A stretch of 64,000 nt of DNA, taken from NCBI RefSeq assembly GCF_004363655.1, contig NZ_SNZH01000002.1, positions 372,001 through 436,000 of the forward strand, written 5' to 3'. The notes beneath the pieces are model-generated. The model saw nothing but the letters and a program-made list of their open reading frames with translations, was not told the DNA's origin and made no database searches. Below are positions 4,704 through 22,767 of the stretch, piece by piece. Each line of letters opens with the position of its first letter. The stretch's first letter is position 1. The stretch is from Tahibacter aquaticus. GTDB taxonomy: Bacteria; Pseudomonadota; Gammaproteobacteria; Xanthomonadales; Rhodanobacteraceae. Both the position numbers and the translations under genes were made by a program.

Positions 4704-6113
4704 ATGTCCGCCGACAAGGTTCTCCAGCTCATCAAGGACGAAGGCATCGAATTCGTCGATCTGCGTTTTGCCGACATGCGCGGCACCCAGCATCACGTCA
4801 CCTTCCCGGCCCATGCGATCGACGCAGGCACGTTCGAAGACGGCAAGATGTTCGACGGTTCCTCGATCGCCGGCTGGAAAGGCATCAACGAGTCCGACAT
4901 GGTGCTGCTGCCGGACGCCGATTCGGCCGTGGTCGATCCGTTCTTCGCCCACAAGACCCTGGCTATCAACTGCGACGTGCTGGAACCGAGCACCATGCAG
5001 GCCTATTCGCGCTGCCCGCGCTCCATCGCCAAGCGCGGCGAAGCCTTCCTCAAGTCCACCGGCCTGGCCGACACGGCCTTCTTCGGCCCCGAGCCCGAGT
5101 TCTTCATCTTCGACTCGGTGCGCTGGCAGAACGACATGGGCAAGGTTTTCTACGAGATCGAATCGCAGGAAGCCGCCTGGAGTTCCAAGTACCGCTACGA
5201 AGAAGGCAACTCGGGCCTGCGCCCCGGCGTGAAGGGCGGCTATTTCCCGCTGCCGCCGGTGGATTCGTTCCAGGATCTGCGTGGCGAGATGTGCCTCGCG
5301 CTGGAAGCCCTCGGCCAGGTGGTCGAAGTGCATCACCATGAAGTGGCGAATGCCGGCCAGTGCGAAATCGGCACGCGCTTCAACACCCTGGTGAAGAAGG
5401 CCGACGAGCTGGCCCTGCTCAAGTACGTGATCCGCAATGTCGCGCACAAGAACGGCAAGACCGTCACCTTCATGCCCAAGCCCATCGTCGGCGACAACGG
5501 CTCGGGCATGCACGTGCACCAGTCGCTGGCCAAAGGCGGCCAGAACCTGTTCTCGGGCGATCTGTACGGCGGCCTGTCGCAGACGGCGCTGTACTACATC
5601 GGCGGCATCTTCAAGCATGCCCGCGCGATCAATGCCTTCACCAACTCCACCACCAACAGCTACAAGCGCCTGGTGCCGGGTTTCGAGGCACCGGTGATGC
5701 TGGCCTATTCGGCCCGCAACCGCTCGGCCAGCTGCCGCATCCCGTTCGTCACCAATCCCAAGGGCCGCCGCATCGAGATCCGTTTCCCCGATCCGATGAA
5801 CTCCGGTTACCTGGCTTTCACCGCGCTGATGATGGCTGGCCTCGACGGCATCCTGAACAAGATCGACCCGGGCGCACCGATGGACAAGGATCTGTACGAC
5901 CTGCCGCCGGAAGAAGAGAAGAACATCCCCACCGTCTGCCACAGCCTGGACCAGGCACTGGAAGCGCTGGACAAGGACCGCGACTTCCTCAAGGCCGGCG
6001 GCGTGTTCTCCGACGACTTCATCGATGCCTACATCGAGCTGAAGATGCAGGAAGTGACCAAGTTCCGTGCATCGACGCATCCGCTGGAATACCAGATGTA
6101 TTACGCGATCTGA
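4704..6113 (+). CDS. glnA: Type I glutamine synthetase
   Basis: 469 residues, the normal length of bacterial GSI-beta. It makes glutamine from glutamate, ammonia and ATP as a cytoplasmic dodecamer. Visible signatures are DGSSIAGW near the N-terminus, the ATP-binding region VHQSL, the active-site segment NRSASCRIP, and the adenylylation loop [11 protein letters not shown] with the target tyrosine near residue 398. Adenylylation control by GlnE is therefore expected. The frame is open 27 codons upstream, but ATG 4704 is chosen because it lies downstream of the sigma-54 promoter and gives the family N-terminus ([21 protein letters not shown]). The porin, PII and AmtB genes follow on the same strand. 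Confidence 0.97.
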
Positions 6114-6127
6114 CGTAGTGCTTTAAG

Positions 6128-6155
6128 CCCTTTCCTGCCTGCCGGCAGGAAAGGG
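6128..6155 (+). terminator. Stem-loop after glnA
   Basis: A perfect 12-base stem (CCCTTTCCTGCC / GGCAGGAAAGGG) with a four-base loop starts 15 bases after the glnA stop. There is no clear U-tract, so it could terminate weakly or protect the 3' end. Confidence 0.6.
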
Positions 6156-6172
6156 CGCAGAGGCTTGAAGCC

Positions 6173-6196
6173 CTCCCCCAGGCTCGCTTGGGGGAG
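6173..6196 (+). terminator. Second stem-loop in the glnA-porin spacer
   Basis: CTCCCCCA and TGGGGGAG pair around an 8-base loop; a second hairpin in tandem with the one at 6128. The rest of the 462-base spacer (to 6575) holds no supported gene. It should contain the promoter of the porin-glnK-amtB unit, though I see no second sigma-54 box. Confidence 0.45.
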
Positions 6197-6575
6197 AAAG
6201 TACAGCCGCTTCGGGCTCTATTGCCGGACCAGATCGGCGAACAAGCCGGTCGAAACTGAAAAATCGATAATCGAAAAGGCAGGGCCGCGGGAGTCGCGCC
6301 TGCAGCAAAGGAAACAACGATAGAAAACCACAACTAGAAACATGAAGGCCGCGTTCGCAACGCGGCCGTTCGGGAAGGGCGGTGCAGCGGCTACGCGAAG
6401 CCGGAGTGCCGGCCGCAGGATGCGGCGATCGAGGTCTGTCCACGCCAGCAGCAGCGGGGACGGAACCAAGGGGCGGTAACAGCTCCGTGACACCCGGAGT
6501 GGACCGGCAGGGACTGCCACCGCAGCGTGCCCATGGCGCGGGCGGCTACCCAACTCATCGAACGGGATCACCTTC

Positions 6576-7322
6576 ATGCCTCGCCTACCAGCCACGTTCA
6601 GCGTGGGCGCTATTCTTGCGTCCGCAGCACTTGCCGCCGGCAATGTCCAGGCAGCGACCAGCGGCACGCTGGCCCTGACCAGCGACTATCTGTTCCGCGG
6701 CCTGTCCCAGACCAACCAGAAACCCGCCCTGCAAGGCGGCGTCGAATACGCCCACGACAGCGGCTTCTATGCCGGCGTCTGGGGCAGCAACATCAGCTGG
6801 CTGTCGGATCTTTCCAGCGCGTCCACGCCGGTTTCCAGCAGCGTGGAACTCGACGGCTATGCCGGCTGGCGCGGTGCCGCCGGCGACACGGTCAAGCTCG
6901 ACGCCGGTGTCTATACCTACTACTACCCCGGCGACTATCCGCAGGGTTTCGTGCGGCCGTATACGACGGAAGTGTATTTCGGCATCAGCGCCGGACCGGC
7001 TTCGCTGAAGTACTACCACGCCGTCAGCAACCTGTTCGGCTTCGCCGAGTCGGACGGCTCGGGCTATCTCGATCTCAGCGTCAACTACGAATTCAGCCCG
7101 GGCTGGGTGTTCAACGGACACGCCGGCCGGCAGCGCGTGAAAGGCACTTCCATCGCCTCGTATACCGACTGGAAATTGGGACTTACGCGCAATTTCGACG
7201 GCGGCTGGTCGCTCGCTGCGGCCTATCTGGATACGAATGCCGAACGCGCCGCCTATACCAATGCCTTCGGCAATTTCCTCGGCCGGTCCACCGGCACCCT
7301 GACCCTCACCAAAGCCTTCTAG
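6576..7322 (+). CDS. TorF-family putative outer-membrane porin
   Basis: 248 residues with a Sec signal peptide (cleavage after NVQA) followed by a beta-rich barrel-like sequence. It opens with LTSDYLFRGLSQTNQKPALQGGVEY, the hallmark start of the TorF/gcw_chp family (TIGR02001), and ends in aromatic Phe as outer-membrane barrels do. In xanthomonads a member of this family commonly sits just upstream of glnK-amtB, as here, with only 15 bases to glnK. A role in outer-membrane passage of ammonium or small nitrogen compounds is an inference from that position. Confidence 0.85.
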   Translation: MPRLPATFSVGAILASAALAAGNVQAATSGTLALTSDYLFRGLSQTNQKPALQGGVEYAHDSGFYAGVWGSNISWLSDLSSASTPVSSSVELDGYAGWRGAAGDTVKLDAGVYTYYYPGDYPQGFVRPYTTEVYFGISAGPASLKYYHAVSNLFGFAESDGSGYLDLSVNYEFSPGWVFNGHAGRQRVKGTSIASYTDWKLGLTRNFDGGWSLAAAYLDTNAERAAYTNAFGNFLGRSTGTLTLTKAF

Positions 7323-7676
<354 letters not shown>

Positions 7677-7685
7677 GGGGGAACC

Positions 7686-9098
7686 ATGACTGCTACGAAT
7701 GAACTGCATCTGCGCCTAGGGCTGTGCTCTGCGGCGGCCCTGCTCTGCGGCCTGTTTGCGCCGGAACTGCTGGCCCAGGCCGCGCCCGTGCCGAACAAGG
7801 GCGATACGGCGTGGCTGCTGGTCTGCGCCGCCATCGTCATCTTCATGACCCTGCCCGGACTGGGCTTGTTCTACGGTGGCCTGGTGCGCTCCAAGAACAT
7901 GCTGTCGGTGCTGATGCAATGCGTGCTGGTATTTGCGCTGGTTGCCATATTGTGGACGTTGTACGGCTACAGCCTGGCCTTCACGCCGGGCAATGCGTTC
8001 TTCGGCGGCTGGGACCGGCTGCTGATGAAAGGGCTGACGGCCGAGGCGAATGCGGCGACGTTTTCCAAGGGCGTGGTAGTGCCGGAACTGGGCTATTTCG
8101 CGTTCCAGTGCGCGTTTGCCTGCATTACCTGCGCACTGATCGTCGGCGCGTTCGCCGAACGCATGCGCTTCTCCGCGGTGCTGCTGTTCACCACGATCTG
8201 GTTCACCTTCAGCTATGTGCCTATGGCGCACATGGTCTGGTTCTGGCCCGGCCCGGATGCGTTCACCGACCAGGCCGCAGCGGATGCGGCGACGGCCGCT
8301 TCGGGCTTCCTGTTCAAGCGTGGCGCACTGGATTTCGCCGGCGGCACGGTGGTGCATATCAATGCCGCCGTGGCCGGCCTGGTTGGTGCCTGGATGGTGG
8401 GCAAGCGCCTGGGCCACGGCCACGAGGCGATGCGGCCGCACAATCTGCCGCTGACCATGACCGGCGCGTCCATTCTCTGGGTGGGCTGGTTCGGCTTCAA
8501 CGCGGGCTCGGCGCTGGAGGCCAACGGCACGGCGGCGCTGGCCTTTGCCAACACGCTGATCGCGCCCTGCGCGGCGATCCTGGCCTGGACCCTGGGCGAA
8601 TGGATCGGCAAGGGCAAGCCGTCGATGCTGGGTGCAGCATCGGGTGCCGTCGCCGGCCTGGTCGGCATTACGCCGGCGGCAGGCTTCGTCGGCCTGGGCG
8701 GGGCGATTGCGATCGGCTTTATTGCCGGCCTGGCCTGCCTGTGGGGCGTGACCGGTCTCAAGCGCCTGCTCAAGGCCGACGATGCGCTGGACGTATTCGG
8801 CGTGCACGGCGTCGGCGGCATCGTCGGCGCCCTGCTCACCGGGGTGTTCGCCGCGCCGTCGCTGGGCGGCAGCGGCATCTACGACTATGTGGCGAACAAG
8901 GTCGCCGACGGCTATTCCATCGGCGGCCAGCTGCTGGTGCAGGGCACCAGCGTGCTGGTGACGCTGGTCTGGTCGGGCGTGGTCGCGTTCATTGCCTTCA
9001 AGCTGGCCGACCTCGCCCTGGGCCTGCGCGTGCCGGCGGACGAAGAGCGCGAAGGCCTGGACATCACCTCGCACGACGAGTCGGCTTACGACCGCTGA
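7686..9098 (+). CDS. amtB: Ammonium transporter
   Basis: 470 residues: a cleavable signal peptide (to about residue 31) followed by eleven hydrophobic segments of the Amt/Rh family. Typical landmarks are GLGLFYGGLVRSKN, the twin-histidine pore residues in GGTVVHINAA and FGVHGVGG, and the cytoplasmic tail where GlnK docks. It conducts ammonia across the inner membrane as a trimer. It is co-transcribed with glnK. The inverted REP pair directly after the stop may end the transcript. Confidence 0.95.
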   Translation: MTATNELHLRLGLCSAAALLCGLFAPELLAQAAPVPNKGDTAWLLVCAAIVIFMTLPGLGLFYGGLVRSKNMLSVLMQCVLVFALVAILWTLYGYSLAFTPGNAFFGGWDRLLMKGLTAEANAATFSKGVVVPELGYFAFQCAFACITCALIVGAFAERMRFSAVLLFTTIWFTFSYVPMAHMVWFWPGPDAFTDQAAADAATAASGFLFKRGALDFAGGTVVHINAAVAGLVGAWMVGKRLGHGHEAMRPHNLPLTMTGASILWVGWFGFNAGSALEANGTAALAFANTLIAPCAAILAWTLGEWIGKGKPSMLGAASGAVAGLVGITPAAGFVGLGGAIAIGFIAGLACLWGVTGLKRLLKADDALDVFGVHGVGGIVGALLTGVFAAPSLGGSGIYDYVANKVADGYSIGGQLLVQGTSVLVTLVWSGVVAFIAFKLADLALGLRVPADEEREGLDITSHDESAYDR

Positions 9099-19132: not shown

Positions 19133-19930
19133 ATGGCGCAATTGGGCAGCCTGGTATGTGTGGGCCTGGGCATGACGCTGGGCTCGCACCTGAGCCCGCT
19201 CGCGCGCAGTCATATCGAACAGGCCGACGTGGTGTTTGCCGGCGTTTCCGACGGCGTCGTCGAGCTGTGGCTGCAGCGACTGCATGCGGATGTGCGCAGC
19301 CTGCAGCCGTATTACCGCGAAGGCCAGTCGCGCCTGCACACCTACGAGCAGATGGTCGAGGCGATGCTGGCCGAAGTGCGCCAGGGCAAGCGTGTGGTCG
19401 GTGCCTTCTACGGCCATCCCGGCGTGTTCGCGCTGCCGCCGCATCGCGCCATCGAACGGGCGCGAGCGGAAGGGTTTGCCGCGCACATGGAGCCGGGCAT
19501 TTCCGCCGAGGACTGCCTCTACGCCGATCTGGGCATCGACCCCGGCCGCGTCGGCTGCCAGCATTTCGAAGCCAGCCAGCTGATGTTCTACCGCCGCCGC
19601 CTGGATACCTCGGCCTATCTGGTGCTGTGGCAGGTCGGCATTGCCGGCGACCAGTCGCTGGCGCGCTTTTCCACGCCGGCGGTATACCGCGAGATTCTGG
19701 TCGATGTGCTGGCGCAGGATTACCCGCGCACGCATCCGGCTGTCATCTACAAGGTGGCCACGCTGCCTATCCACACTCCGCGCATCGAGCACACCACGCT
19801 GCAGGGGCTGGTAGCGGCCGAGATCGATCTGCACGCCACCGTGGTGCTGCCGCCGGCACGCGAGCTGGAACCCAACCGCGAGGTGCGCGAGCGCCTGCGC
19901 CAGCTCGATCGCGACATCGGCTACGCATGA
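19133..19930 (+). CDS. Borosin-type peptide backbone alpha-N-methyltransferase (SonM-like)
   Basis: 265 residues from ATG 19133 with a strong GGAGG. It has a tetrapyrrole-methylase-fold SAM domain but not a haem-pathway signature. It follows split-borosin methyltransferases: GSLVCVGLGM at the start, LARSHIEQADVVF, then Tyr60/61, Arg67 and Tyr71 in the QSRLHTYEQM region, Tyr93 in FYGHPGVFA, and MEPGISAEDCLYADLGIDPG plus FEASQLMF. The Tyr/Arg/Tyr/Tyr set corresponds to catalytic residues described for fungal OphMA and Shewanella SonM (from memory). These enzymes methylate backbone amides of a separate precursor, which here is encoded two genes downstream. There is no fused precursor, so it is the split type. 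It overlaps the GNAT gene by four bases. Confidence 0.9.
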   Translation: MAQLGSLVCVGLGMTLGSHLSPLARSHIEQADVVFAGVSDGVVELWLQRLHADVRSLQPYYREGQSRLHTYEQMVEAMLAEVRQGKRVVGAFYGHPGVFALPPHRAIERARAEGFAAHMEPGISAEDCLYADLGIDPGRVGCQHFEASQLMFYRRRLDTSAYLVLWQVGIAGDQSLARFSTPAVYREILVDVLAQDYPRTHPAVIYKVATLPIHTPRIEHTTLQGLVAAEIDLHATVVLPPARELEPNREVRERLRQLDRDIGYA

Positions 19931-20496
19931 ATGCCGTTGCTGCCAGCGCTGCGTTCGAGACCGAGCGCCTGCGCGTGCGCAGCCTCTGCGCGGCCGACGA
20001 AGCGCTGTATTGCAGCCTGTATACCGATGCGCGGCTGATGCGCCATATCGGTCCGCCGCTGGATGCGCCGCAGGCGCGGCGCAGTTTCCGCGCTGCCGTG
20101 TCGGCCGCGGCGCGGCAGCCGCCGCGACACGTGTATTTCAGCCTGTACGACCGGCAGCACGACCACGCGCTCGGTGTCTGCGCCGTGCGTGACATCGACC
20201 TGGAACACAAGCGCGCGGAAATAGGGCTCATGCTGCGGCGCGAAGCGCATGCCAGCGGCATCGCGCGCGAAGGACTGCAGGCGGTGATGGCCTGGAGCTT
20301 TCGCGAACTGCCTATCGATCAGCTGTATGGGCAGACCGATTCTGCCAACCTCGCCGCCTGTCGTGCGGCGCGGCGGGCGGGTTTTTCTGCGCAAGCGGGA
20401 GGCGATACCGGAGGGGCCGCGGCATCGTCTTGCATGTTCCTGTTCAACAGGCCAGTTTCCCGTAACCGTAGCAGCACCAGCCAGTCAAAGGAGTAG
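19927..20496 (+). CDS. GNAT-family acetyltransferase in the borosin operon
   Basis: 189 residues from ATG 19927, overlapping the methyltransferase stop (ATGA). The N-terminus FETERLRVRSLCAADEALYCSLYTDARLM and the central strand-helix (IGLMLRREAHASGIAREGLQAVMAWSF) match RimJ/RimL-type GNAT acetyltransferases, with the acetyl-CoA loop at RREAHASGIA. The C-terminal YGQTDSANLAACRAARRAGF fits motif B of the fold. Its place between methyltransferase and precursor suggests it acetylates the N-methylated peptide or a fragment of it. That is inference; it might instead act on an unrelated small molecule. Confidence 0.8.
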   Translation: MNAVAASAAFETERLRVRSLCAADEALYCSLYTDARLMRHIGPPLDAPQARRSFRAAVSAAARQPPRHVYFSLYDRQHDHALGVCAVRDIDLEHKRAEIGLMLRREAHASGIAREGLQAVMAWSFRELPIDQLYGQTDSANLAACRAARRAGFSAQAGGDTGGAAASSCMFLFNRPVSRNRSSTSQSKE

Positions 20497-20498
20497 TG

Positions 20499-20921
20499 AT
20501 GTCCAACGTCATCGAGTTCCTGGAAAAGATGGGTCGCGAAGCGAAACTGCGGCATGCCTCGACTGCCGAACTGGCAGCCGCGCTGAGCCAGCAGGCCGTG
20601 GACCCCGAGCTTCACGCCGCCATCCTGGCCGGCGACCAGCGCCGCCTGGAAGCCGTGCTGGGCGCACGCACCAACGTGGTCTGCGGCATGGCGCCGGCCG
20701 AAGAAGAAGCGCCGAGCAAGGACAAGGACAAGGAAGAGGAAGAAATCCGCTTCGCCGCCGTGTCTGGCGGCGACAAGGATGAAGAAGAAATCCGTTGCGT
20801 CGCCACGCTTGGCGGTGACAAGGACGAGGAAGAAATCCGCCTCGCCGCTGCGTTCGGCGGCGACAAGGACGAGGAAGAAATCCGTTTCGCCGCGCCGGCT
20901 GGCCGTGTTGCCGCAGCCTGA
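20499..20921 (+). CDS. Split borosin precursor peptide with four core repeats
   Basis: 140 residues from ATG 20499, behind AAAGGAG and 2 bases after the GNAT stop; a GTG one codon earlier is less likely. Residues 1-67 resemble the borosin-binding domain of SonA-type precursors: a helical leader (FLEKMGREAKLRHASTAEL), then VDPELHAAILAGDQRRLEAVLGA and VVCGMAPAEEE. Residues 77-136 are four 15-residue repeats with spacer DKDEEE followed by a short hydrophobic core: IRFAAVSGG (83-91), IRCVATLGG (98-106), IRLAAAFGG (113-121) and IRFAAPAG (128-135). The cores vary while the spacers are almost fixed, as in multi-core RiPP precursors. Backbone N-methylation in the hydrophobic cores is predicted. Confidence 0.88.
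   Translation: MSNVIEFLEKMGREAKLRHASTAELAAALSQQAVDPELHAAILAGDQRRLEAVLGARTNVVCGMAPAEEEAPSKDKDKEEEEIRFAAVSGGDKDEEEIRCVATLGGDKDEEEIRLAAAFGGDKDEEEIRFAAPAGRVAAA
20727..20906 (+). repeat. Four 45-base tandem repeats inside the borosin precursor
   Basis: In-frame units of exactly 45 bases encode the spacer-core blocks at residues 77-91, 92-106, 107-121 and 122-136. The spacer bases are nearly invariant (GACAAGGA, then GAGGAAGAAATCCG) and differences concentrate in the core codons. This points to duplication followed by diversification of the cores. Confidence 0.9.
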
Positions 20922-22767
20922 GCAGCGCCGCGACGCCGACACGGTCGCCGGCCGCTTGCGGTCGCGGATCCGGGTCGGCGTCGCGGCCTTGGTGGCATTG
21001 CTGCTGGCCACTGCAGTCATCGCCTTGCAACCCGGCGAGCTGGATAACCGCCTGCGCGAAGCCGACGCGCTGAAGAGTTCCAACTACGCGCGCTTCGCCG
21101 CCATGCTGGGCGAGATGGACGCCGCGGACCAGCCGCTCAGTCCGGCCCAGCGCCAATACCTGAACTATCTGAAGGCCTGGGAGCGCGGCTATGCCGGCGA
21201 CTACGAGGCCGCGATTCCGCTGTACAAATCGGTCATCGCCGAATCCGACGACTCGGTGCTGCAGTTTCGCGCCACCGCCAGTCTGGTCAGCAACCTAACC
21301 ATCGCGCGGCGCTACCTGGAGGCCTATACCTACCTGGACCTGCTGGTCGAGCGCATGCCGCAGACCACCGACCTGCTGGCGCGCGAACAAGGCCTGCACG
21401 CCGCGGCCCTGCTCAACAACCAGGCCGGCCAGTACGAACTGGGGCTGGATTTCAGCACGCGCCTGCTGCACGAACGCATGGGCCTGCGCGGCGAATGCAT
21501 CGCGCGCGAGCTGCGCGTGGAATCGCTGTACAAGTCCAAGCGGCTGGAACCGGATGGCGAAGACGTCAGCTTCGCCATCGAAGCCTGCCAACGCCACGGC
21601 GAGGCGGTGTTCGCCAGCATCGTGCGCAGCTTCCAGGCGCATGCCTTCATCGACAAGGCACGTTACCGCGAAGCCAGGGATGTGCTGGAGAGCAACTACG
21701 AGGAAGTGCAGAAAACCCGCTATCTGCGCATCATTTCCGAGTTCGACGTGCTGCTGGCCGAATCGTACTGGCAGCTGGGCGACCTGCCGCGCGCGCGCAA
21801 CTACGCCCTGCGTGCGATCGACAAGCGCCTGCCCAAGGAAGTGACCGATTCGCTGGTGGCGGCCTACCGCCTGCTCTACCGCATCTCGCTGCAGCAGAAC
21901 GACACCAAGTCCGCACTGGCCTACCACGAAAAATACGCCGAGGCGGACAAGCAGAATTTCGACGACATCAGCGCGCGTTCGCTCGCCTACCAGATGGCGC
22001 GCCACCAGGCCACCGCGACCAAGCTGCAGATCGAGGCGCTGAACAAGCAGAACCAGGTGCTGCAGCTGGAACAGCAGCTCGGCGCCAAGGCCGTGGAAAC
22101 CAGCCGCCTGTACATCGCCCTGCTCATCGCCGTGCTGCTGATGCTCGTGTTGTGGGCGTTCTATACCAAGCGCCGCCAGCTGTATTTCCGCCGGCTGTCG
22201 CAGCGCGATGGCCTGACCCAGATCGCCAACCGGCCGCATTTCCTCGAAGCCTCGGCCCGTGCGCTGGACGAATGCCGCCGGGCCGGCGGCGAAGCTGCCG
22301 TAATCCTGTTCGACCTGGATCACTTCAAGGTGATCAACGATCGCCACGGCCATGCGGCCGGCGACCACGTGCTGCGCAAGGTGACGGCTGCCTGCCGCAC
22401 CTACCTCAGGCCGGAGCAGTACTTCGGCCGCATCGGCGGCGAGGAATTCGCCATTCTGCTGATCGGCTACGACGAGGCCAGGGCCGTGGCCCTGGCCGAA
22501 CAGTTGCGCCGTGCCGTGACTGCAGCCAATGCCGACGGCGCGTTCGGCGAATTCAGCGTATCGGCCAGTTTCGGCGTCACTTCCACGCGCAAGGCCGGCC
22601 ACGAGCTGCGCCAGCTGCTGGCCTGCGCCGACGCGGCGCTGTACCAGGCCAAGCTCGACGGGCGCGACCGCGTGGCAACCTTCGACGGCTCGCCTGCCAC
22701 CGTCGCTGCGACGCCGCTGCATGCGCAGCGCGACCGTCTGCTGGGTAGCGTCACGCCGCTGAGTTGA
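20905..22767 (+). CDS. Membrane TPR-GGDEF diguanylate cyclase
   Basis: 620 residues if started at GTG 20905, 17 bases before the precursor stop. The frame is open back to 20779, but that part is an out-of-frame reading of the core repeats. A transmembrane segment (residues ~24-41) leads into a periplasmic helical repeat region. A second segment follows near 402-421 (ALLIAVLLMLVLWAF) and then a cytoplasmic GGDEF domain. The active-site motif is GGEEF, and LFDLDHFKVINDRHGH is intact, so it should make cyclic di-GMP. The inhibitory site is degenerate (RPEQ instead of RxxD). Overlap with the precursor suggests translational coupling. Confidence 0.85.
   Translation: MLPQPEQRRDADTVAGRLRSRIRVGVAALVALLLATAVIALQPGELDNRLREADALKSSNYARFAAMLGEMDAADQPLSPAQRQYLNYLKAWERGYAGDYEAAIPLYKSVIAESDDSVLQFRATASLVSNLTIARRYLEAYTYLDLLVERMPQTTDLLAREQGLHAAALLNNQAGQYELGLDFSTRLLHERMGLRGECIARELRVESLYKSKRLEPDGEDVSFAIEACQRHGEAVFASIVRSFQAHAFIDKARYREARDVLESNYEEVQKTRYLRIISEFDVLLAESYWQLGDLPRARNYALRAIDKRLPKEVTDSLVAAYRLLYRISLQQNDTKSALAYHEKYAEADKQNFDDISARSLAYQMARHQATATKLQIEALNKQNQVLQLEQQLGAKAVETSRLYIALLIAVLLMLVLWAFYTKRRQLYFRRLSQRDGLTQIANRPHFLEASARALDECRRAGGEAAVILFDLDHFKVINDRHGHAAGDHVLRKVTAACRTYLRPEQYFGRIGGEEFAILLIGYDEARAVALAEQLRRAVTAANADGAFGEFSVSASFGVTSTRKAGHELRQLLACADAALYQAKLDGRDRVATFDGSPATVAATPLHAQRDRLLGSVTPLS

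Follow-up and report, generated by a model that had tools for sequence, protein, structure and literature searches.

Split borosins carry their α-N-methyltransferase and its precursor on separate proteins and, to our knowledge, neither the products nor the function of these systems were known when SonM and SonA were described. A locus of Tahibacter aquaticus raises the question of what such peptides are made for. It lies in a stretch of 64,000 nucleotides (contig NZ_SNZH01000002.1, positions 372,001 to 436,000; hereafter the window) of a 7.27 Mb genome and consists of four head-to-tail genes on the forward strand (19133-22767), which encode a methyltransferase, a GNAT acetyltransferase, a precursor protein and a sensor diguanylate cyclase. 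A first-pass annotation had read the first three as a split borosin locus; the fourth, encoding a cyclase with tetratricopeptide repeat (TPR) and GGDEF regions, was absent from it and turned out to be the most constant neighbour of the precursor. We propose, with a probability of about 0.55, that the locus is a type IV-like split borosin module making a peptide signal for its own receptor cyclase, which would link split borosins to cyclic di-GMP (c-di-GMP). We infer this signal function, and every biochemical step in it, from gene pairing, gene fusion, co-variation and topology.

Methyltransferase and precursor

The 265-residue open reading frame (ORF) with five borosin motifs quoted in the first-pass annotation was recovered, as was the 140-residue protein two genes downstream, which follows the GNAT gene and whose acidic tail holds a tandem repeat. 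The annotation had assigned the enzyme to the borosins rather than to the haem-pathway methylases, and searches agree. The best match in the PDB is SonM (E 5.6e-76), followed by borosin enzymes of the OphMA type at about 1e-49 and weaker; the sole corrin methylase below E 0.01 scores 1.5e-3, and the best match is thus neither a uroporphyrinogen nor a cobalamin methylase. Alignment to SonM gives 130 identities over 253 aligned residues (51%). The conserved catalytic residues include R67, Y71, Y93, F99 and W166 of SonM, identical in the window enzyme, while Y58 aligns to Y61, residue 60 being also a tyrosine; the roles of these six SonM residues are given in a section of PMC8429565. An enzyme of corrin or porphyrin metabolism without relation to peptides could be suspected from the Pfam family (TP_methylase) and from NCBIfam matches to YabN, siroheme and cobalamin enzymes. 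These NCBIfam matches all fall far under their cut-offs, SonM and OphMA are far better matches and a precursor gene lies next door; this identity was rejected and retains only a negligible likelihood. Among the matches listed with named records, the closest methyltransferase is that of Tahibacter harae (89%), and a plasmid search returned only distant methyltransferases, at most 43% identical.

The precursor leads to the same family. A profile hidden Markov model seeded with the window leader found ORFs at all but one of the first 110 loci (109/110, duplicates between collections included), and a later profile built on 43 precursors finds SonA (residues 1-59) at E 2e-5. The structure model contains helices at residues 2-13, 15-18, 22-31, 36-44 and 47-54, with ten-residue means of 81-95 in the predicted local distance difference test (pLDDT) over residues 1-60 and a low-confidence tail. 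SonA chains rank first in Foldseek (TMt 0.78), a match that is only suggestive because its E-value of 2.3 is non-significant. The profile match, the five helices and this ranking together point to a five-helix borosin binding domain and, with the enzyme homology, uphold the earlier proposal of a split locus of the SonM/SonA kind. As judged from these comparisons, it is near certain that the locus belongs to the split borosins.

SonA and the window precursor align through the profile from residue 1 without a gap to residue 55. The SonA core, residues 62-71 with L63 and I65 methylated (a section of PMC8429565), therefore corresponds to about CGMAPAEEEA of the window precursor. At this place relatives typically carry a short hydrophobic run, often with a cysteine, which ends in proline and acidic residues; many Dyella-type precursors have a PQ-rich motif instead. 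Several Rhodanobacter loci encode two or more precursors, and some Rhodanobacter precursors (L051:5898-6287, L042:5944-6210 and L047:5731-6213; L numbers denote loci, G numbers genomes) show a doubled hydrophobic core, for example CCMMLPATVCCMMLPG. The sole further precursor match in the window genome lies on contig C14 inside an open frame of 1206 aa (E 0.0047); it was attributed to chance and rejected as a second precursor.

Pairing of precursor and sensor cyclase

The window cyclase begins with a hydrophobic helix, continues with a helical region giving weak TPR matches and a second membrane helix, and ends in a GGDEF domain with the motif RIGGEEF. It thus combines an intact GG(D/E)EF motif with a sensor between two membrane helices, as in a membrane sensor diguanylate cyclase. 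Its structure model has a mean pLDDT of 92.5; in Foldseek the best 50 matches contain GGDEF domains and nothing was gained on the TPR part. In its own genome the cyclase has 17 other matches at E <= 1e-20, none of which starts before residue 339, so that they fall at the GGDEF end; searched by itself, the sensor region has no second match in this genome at E <= 1e-10. The second membrane helix is found in 65 of 66 sensors at a strict hydropathy cut. Two sensor cysteines, C177 and C207 (numbered from 20968), are invariant in all 66 aligned and all 21 further sensors (87/87), and such a pair would suit a disulfide outside the cytoplasm. Within 22201-22671 the window cyclase reads LRPEQYFGRIGGEEF instead of the family consensus LRxxDxFGRLGGEEF and so lacks the aspartate usual at the inhibitory site.

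The cyclase gene accompanies the precursor well beyond the window. Of seven same-genus genomes, six encode the methyltransferase and keep the order methyltransferase, GNAT, precursor, cyclase, and the seventh lacks the methyltransferase. Loci with less than 2.6 kb downstream of the methyltransferase or with a gene cut were left out of the counts, namely 8 of the 80 named loci and 1 of the 24 from other families of the order. In the 72 named-record loci kept, a precursor lies near the methyltransferase in all 72 and a sensor cyclase within 2.6 kb downstream in 71. The exception is L040 of Arenimonas daejeonensis (L040:6140-7911, + strand), in which the cyclase is split into two ORFs, possibly by a frameshift, and GGDEF lies in two pieces. 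Loci from the other families of the order show the sensor in 23 of 23 cases and a detected precursor in 14. Two contigs labelled Candidatus Eremiobacteraeota and Rhizobium (L083, L110) carry Lysobacterales-like borosin loci (67% identity) and are possibly misbinned.

Of 196 related genomes, 99 have both methyltransferase and sensor, 12 have only the methyltransferase, 2 have only the sensor and 83 have neither; five genomes with methyltransferase matches near E 1e-4 were scored as lacking it, as were seven weak ones in the set from the Neiella order. The two relatives with a sensor and no methyltransferase found are G151 (L234) and G169 (L228, 77% complete), with no precursor detected alongside. 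In the Neiella order, 77 of 295 genomes have a methyltransferase match (70 at E <1e-20). Twenty of these loci, chosen by hand among the 77 genomes so as to span a range of identities and hence a non-random sample, include 19 with a sensor cyclase and 18 with a precursor directly upstream of it. The methyltransferase follows the cyclase in L294 and lies on the opposite strand in L301, where the precursor match is weak. One locus bears directly on the SonA system: L287 encodes a SonA orthologue (E 2.4e-38, the alignment covering 71 of 71 residues) and a methyltransferase 50% identical to that of the window, and its cyclase frame, with a hydrophobic N terminus, has as first start codon the TTG right after the stop of the SonA orthologue. 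A SonA-type system thus has the same sensor-cyclase neighbour.

Precursor and sensor stay together even at a distance from the enzyme. Among the matches listed, 119 of 150 sensors lie within 6 kb of a listed methyltransferase. The remaining 31 include 21 with a precursor directly upstream, 1 behind another sensor and 9 with none detected. Twenty of these 21 pairs have no methyltransferase on the fetched locus (L213-L218, L220-L226, L230-L233 and L237-L239), while in L241 it lies just beyond 6 kb. Over the loci examined, a precursor is found directly upstream of 119 of 151 sensors, and several precursor-sensor pairs share a single methyltransferase in L241, L178 and L249. As side observations, L241:2221-14120 (+ strand) holds one methyltransferase with three precursors and five sensor cyclases in a row, L213, L214 and L220 have the core LMAVQLPAEEEE in common, and an ORF (L219:4805-5248, - strand) that precedes a sensor for which no precursor was detected ends like a cut-off precursor leader (MSIVIGFLETREAGARLRPAGETAC).

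A constant regulator beside a biosynthetic cluster is common, and the gene order would equally fit an ordinary secreted borosin natural product, such as a toxin or a metal binder, the cyclase then regulating production or release of the compound rather than sensing it. Fungal borosins include the nematocidal omphalotin (part of PMC11285071). A regulator of this kind is hard to reconcile with the 21 sensors still behind a precursor more than 6 kb from a listed methyltransferase and with the several pairs served by one enzyme, and we regard the natural-product explanation as rather unlikely.

Co-variation also argues against it. Sensors shorter than 575 aa or weaker than 1e-14 were dropped, pairs more than 90% alike were removed (119 to 115), as were those whose locus carried no methyltransferase or more than one (115 to 92), and partial Mantel tests were run over the remaining 92 precursor-sensor pairs. 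The core co-varies with the sensor when leader, methyltransferase and GGDEF domain are controlled (r 0.375, p 0.001), and so does the tail under the same controls (r 0.244, p 0.001). With leader and sensor controlled, the core shows no detectable correlation with the methyltransferase (r 0.014, p 0.396) and next to none with the GGDEF domain (r 0.015). When sensor and core are controlled, the leader co-varies with the methyltransferase (r 0.242, p 0.001).

In L251 and L252, sensor, GGDEF and methyltransferase are fused in one ORF with a precursor gene upstream. The methyltransferase is there joined to the C-terminal, cytoplasmic end of the cyclase, an arrangement that would suit an intracellular protein switch, in which the folded methylated precursor, with methyltransferase and leader, regulates the cyclase from the cytoplasmic side and no peptide is freed. 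The leader-sensor correlation given methyltransferase and core (r 0.579) can be read likewise. By the predicted topology, however, the co-varying part of the receptor lies across the membrane, and a pepsin-like peptidase gene adjoins the methyltransferase in several genomes. The protein switch thus appears improbable, slightly more so than the natural product.

Several observations weigh against a peptide signal for a paired receptor. The leader correlates with the sensor more strongly than the core does, so part of the signal is explained by neighbouring genes having been inherited together. Relatedness is not taken into account by the Mantel and Fisher tests, and the co-variation set includes a few precursors with a badly placed leader (e.g. 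L141, L155, L157). The number of changes between core classes, defined by a pattern rule that misplaced a few Cys-type cores, is 7 for the sensor tree and 8 for the methyltransferase tree, which does not discriminate between the two. At the strict cut only 40 of 66 sensors show the N-terminal helix; a looser cut finds it in 87 of 115, compared with 3 of 115 for a control stretch. Ten of the 31 far-off listed sensors have no precursor detected directly upstream, and L293 has a methyltransferase and a precursor and no sensor. Precursor and sensor are both missing from six of the seven loci at class level (L144-L150); the seventh, L146, has a precursor, a weak sensor and GGDEF in another order, and the downstream rule succeeds in 0 of the 3 class-level loci counted, the other 4 of 7 having been left out with methyltransferases weaker than 1e-50. 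For seven loci with divergent methyltransferases, the downstream rule gives a sensor in 1 and a precursor in 2; a precursor-like ORF and a GGDEF gene are present on all seven, upstream of the methyltransferase in six. Finally, neither precursor nor peptidase has an obvious signal peptide by eye, and no exporter was identified, no search aimed at exporters having been made.

Accessory genes, proposed pathway and tail repeats

The window genome encodes one pepsin homologue (PF00026), on contig C7 outside the window, and the pepsin family is found in 0 of 14 control genomes. Homologues of this peptidase occur in 14 of the 196 relatives and in 28 of the 295 Neiella-order genomes, in each case together with the methyltransferase (14/14 and 28/28). 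At least 14 of the 29 peptidase genes of the Neiella-order set lie within 5 kb of a methyltransferase, a lower bound obtained with 41 of the listed methyltransferase matches. The peptidase stands beside the borosin locus in L141-L143, on the opposite strand in L142. With the whole PF00026 family as query, 17 of 197 genomes (the window genome included) match, all with the methyltransferase; the matches in G019 and G053 are much stronger than the others and may be of another kind. Shewasin A reportedly processes a borosin precursor. Shewasins are pepsin homologues of Shewanella, and shewasin D accumulates in the cytoplasm (part of PMC4814920); the window-genome peptidase is probably cytoplasmic.

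The pairing with a GNAT gene (PF13302), which had looked new in the first-pass annotation, proved to be recurrent. In each of the six same-genus relatives that encode the methyltransferase, this gene lies between the methyltransferase and precursor genes; counted by position and score, it occurs in 13 of the 72 named-record loci and 10 of the 23 from other families of the order. It is contiguous with the pepsin-like peptidase gene in L253, L296, L297, L300 and L302. The last four share the order peptidase, GNAT, methyltransferase, precursor, cyclase, and in Neiella (L253, L109) these five genes are contiguous.

The peptide signal would be produced as follows. By homology, the five-helix leader would dock on the SonM-type methyltransferase, which would N-methylate backbone amides of the hydrophobic segment just past the leader and perhaps also the amplified EEEIR-xxxxx-GG units. 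The pepsin-like peptidase, encoded elsewhere in the genome but beside the methyltransferase in several relatives, may trim the precursor, as its co-occurrence suggests, and the GNAT enzyme, recurrently linked, would probably acetylate the precursor or the freed peptide. A protease-resistant, membrane-permeant peptide would then reach the periplasm, bind the TPR sensor of the adjacent cyclase and alter c-di-GMP synthesis inside; the binding step is proposed because of the pairing, co-variation, fusion and topology described above.

The first-pass annotation had also called the precursor multi-core, a claim that holds in part. Tandem Repeats Finder (TRF) reports a 45-bp period in the tail (3.7 copies, score 229), corresponding to four 15-aa units: EEEEIR-FAAVS-GGDK, DEEEIR-CVATL-GGDK, DEEEIR-LAAAF-GGDK and DEEEIR-FAAPA-GRVA. 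Between units, change in the spacers (EEEEIR, GGDK) is almost all silent (proportion of synonymous differences, pS, 0.42; of non-synonymous differences, pN, 0.025), whereas the five variable residues change freely (pS 0.31, pN 0.41). Repeated units with conserved spacers and variable cores are what a multi-core precursor would display, and from this substitution pattern it is plausible that the repeats evolve like multi-core units and stem from a functional unit that was amplified, although a sample of four units is small. Same-genus relatives, on the other side, have at most one such element: a single EEI(R/V) followed by a different short tail in five, none in the sixth (L113). Together with the variable-length acidic tails common in the precursor family, this would also fit recent replication slippage in an acidic solubility tail devoid of cores, a quite possible alternative, slightly less likely than its negation. 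The spacer pattern counts against slippage, weakly with four units only, as do the independent core-like unit repeats in L293 and the duplicated cores in L042, L047 and L051.

No other precursor compared has the window repeat unit. A set of 207 distinct precursor-like ORFs, which includes that of the window, contains a stronger-scoring repeat only in L293, where the unit is different; a repeat as a general feature of the family was accordingly rejected. The L293 ORF (L293:5362-6831, - strand), at a methyltransferase locus, repeats a 10-aa unit, mostly DAAIIKGYA[AP], ten times, with no sensor cyclase in the 13 kb fetched, and is a candidate multi-core borosin of another kind.

The genes of the window locus are tightly packed (Table 1). 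The methyltransferase stop and the GNAT start overlap in an ATGA (19927-19930), 2 bp separate the GNAT stop from the precursor start, and two of the three possible cyclase starts precede the precursor stop, in which case the two genes overlap. Upstream, the methyltransferase gene neighbours a nitronate monooxygenase gene and, beyond it on the opposite strand, a LysR gene.

Table 1. Features of the borosin locus in window positions, and fusion ORFs of two relatives in positions of their own loci
Feature	Position	Strand	Basis or details
SonM-type α-N-methyltransferase, 265 aa	19133..19930	+	PDB match, alignment to SonM, Pfam TP_methylase
GNAT acetyltransferase, 189 aa from ATG 19927	19927..20496	+	PF13302, E 3.7e-24
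Precursor protein, 140 aa	20499..20921	+	ORF, leader profile, structure model
Borosin binding domain of precursor, residues 1-55, five predicted helices	20499..20663	+	Profile, model
Core-like hydrophobic segment TNVVCGMAPAEEEA, precursor residues 58-71, position of SonA core	20670..20711	+	Profile alignment to SonA
Tandem repeat of precursor tail, 45-bp period	20727..20893	+	TRF, codon comparison
Transmembrane helix, predicted periplasmic TPR sensor, transmembrane helix, GGDEF diguanylate cyclase; start GTG 20905, TTG 20908 or TTG 20956	20905..22767	+	GGDEF E 1.1e-37, weak TPR matches
Sensor region of cyclase; invariant cysteines at about 21496-21498 and 21586-21588	21040..22110	+	Sequence comparison
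GGDEF domain, active-site motif RIGGEEF	22201..22671	+	Pfam match, motif
L251 fusion	5138-7711	-	Sensor 39-390, GGDEF 428-594, methyltransferase 599-856
L252 fusion	5341-7806	-	Sensor 22-374, GGDEF 410-576, methyltransferase 578-820

Significance and comparison with known systems

The receptor-like cyclase that recurs behind the precursor, the SonA orthologue included, offers a direct test of peptide function. A wider reading, which we hold tentatively and at a little under even odds, is that split borosins are peptide signals, each precursor having its own periplasmic TPR receptor that makes c-di-GMP; methyltransferase, GNAT and peptidase would be maturation machinery sharable by several pairs, and the precursor described here would have expanded to a multi-unit form. 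Backbone N-methylation would then be a way to make durable bacterial peptide signals, in which bacterial pepsin homologues would have a role.

In the literature compared, the link between borosins and cyclases left a single trace, the naming of GGDEF among borosin architectures in the Figure 1 legend of PMC11395268, a part of that paper from which it follows that some borosin-GGDEF link was known to its authors. Since the main publications describing types V-X and borosin mining lie beyond this comparison, no judgement of priority is made. The L251 and L252 fusions may be of the kind named in that legend, while the window cyclase is a separate gene. The window-genome peptidase shares its pepsin homology with the shewasins (part of PMC4814920) and differs in being encoded away from the borosin genes. 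For control of a GGDEF enzyme by TPR there is a precedent in RcbA/RcbB of Vibrio vulnificus (abstract of PMC12282931), in which the TPR domain of RcbB represses its own GGDEF enzyme and the product of the neighbouring gene relieves this repression; the partner of RcbB is itself a TPR protein, and the abstract features no methyltransferase or modified peptide.

The closest known system is the type IV split borosin SonM/SonA of Shewanella oneidensis (PMC8429565, in part; PDB 7LTC). The available text of that paper contains no mention of GGDEF, the sections of it used here do not discuss the cyclase, and SO1480 does not occur in it. Both systems have a separate enzyme and precursor, with 51% identity between the enzymes, a five-helix N-terminal leader and the same core position, and the same kind of sensor cyclase stands behind the SonA orthologue of L287. 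In the Tahibacter locus, by contrast, a GNAT gene separates enzyme and precursor, the precursor has a long acidic tail containing four repeats, and its core differs in sequence.

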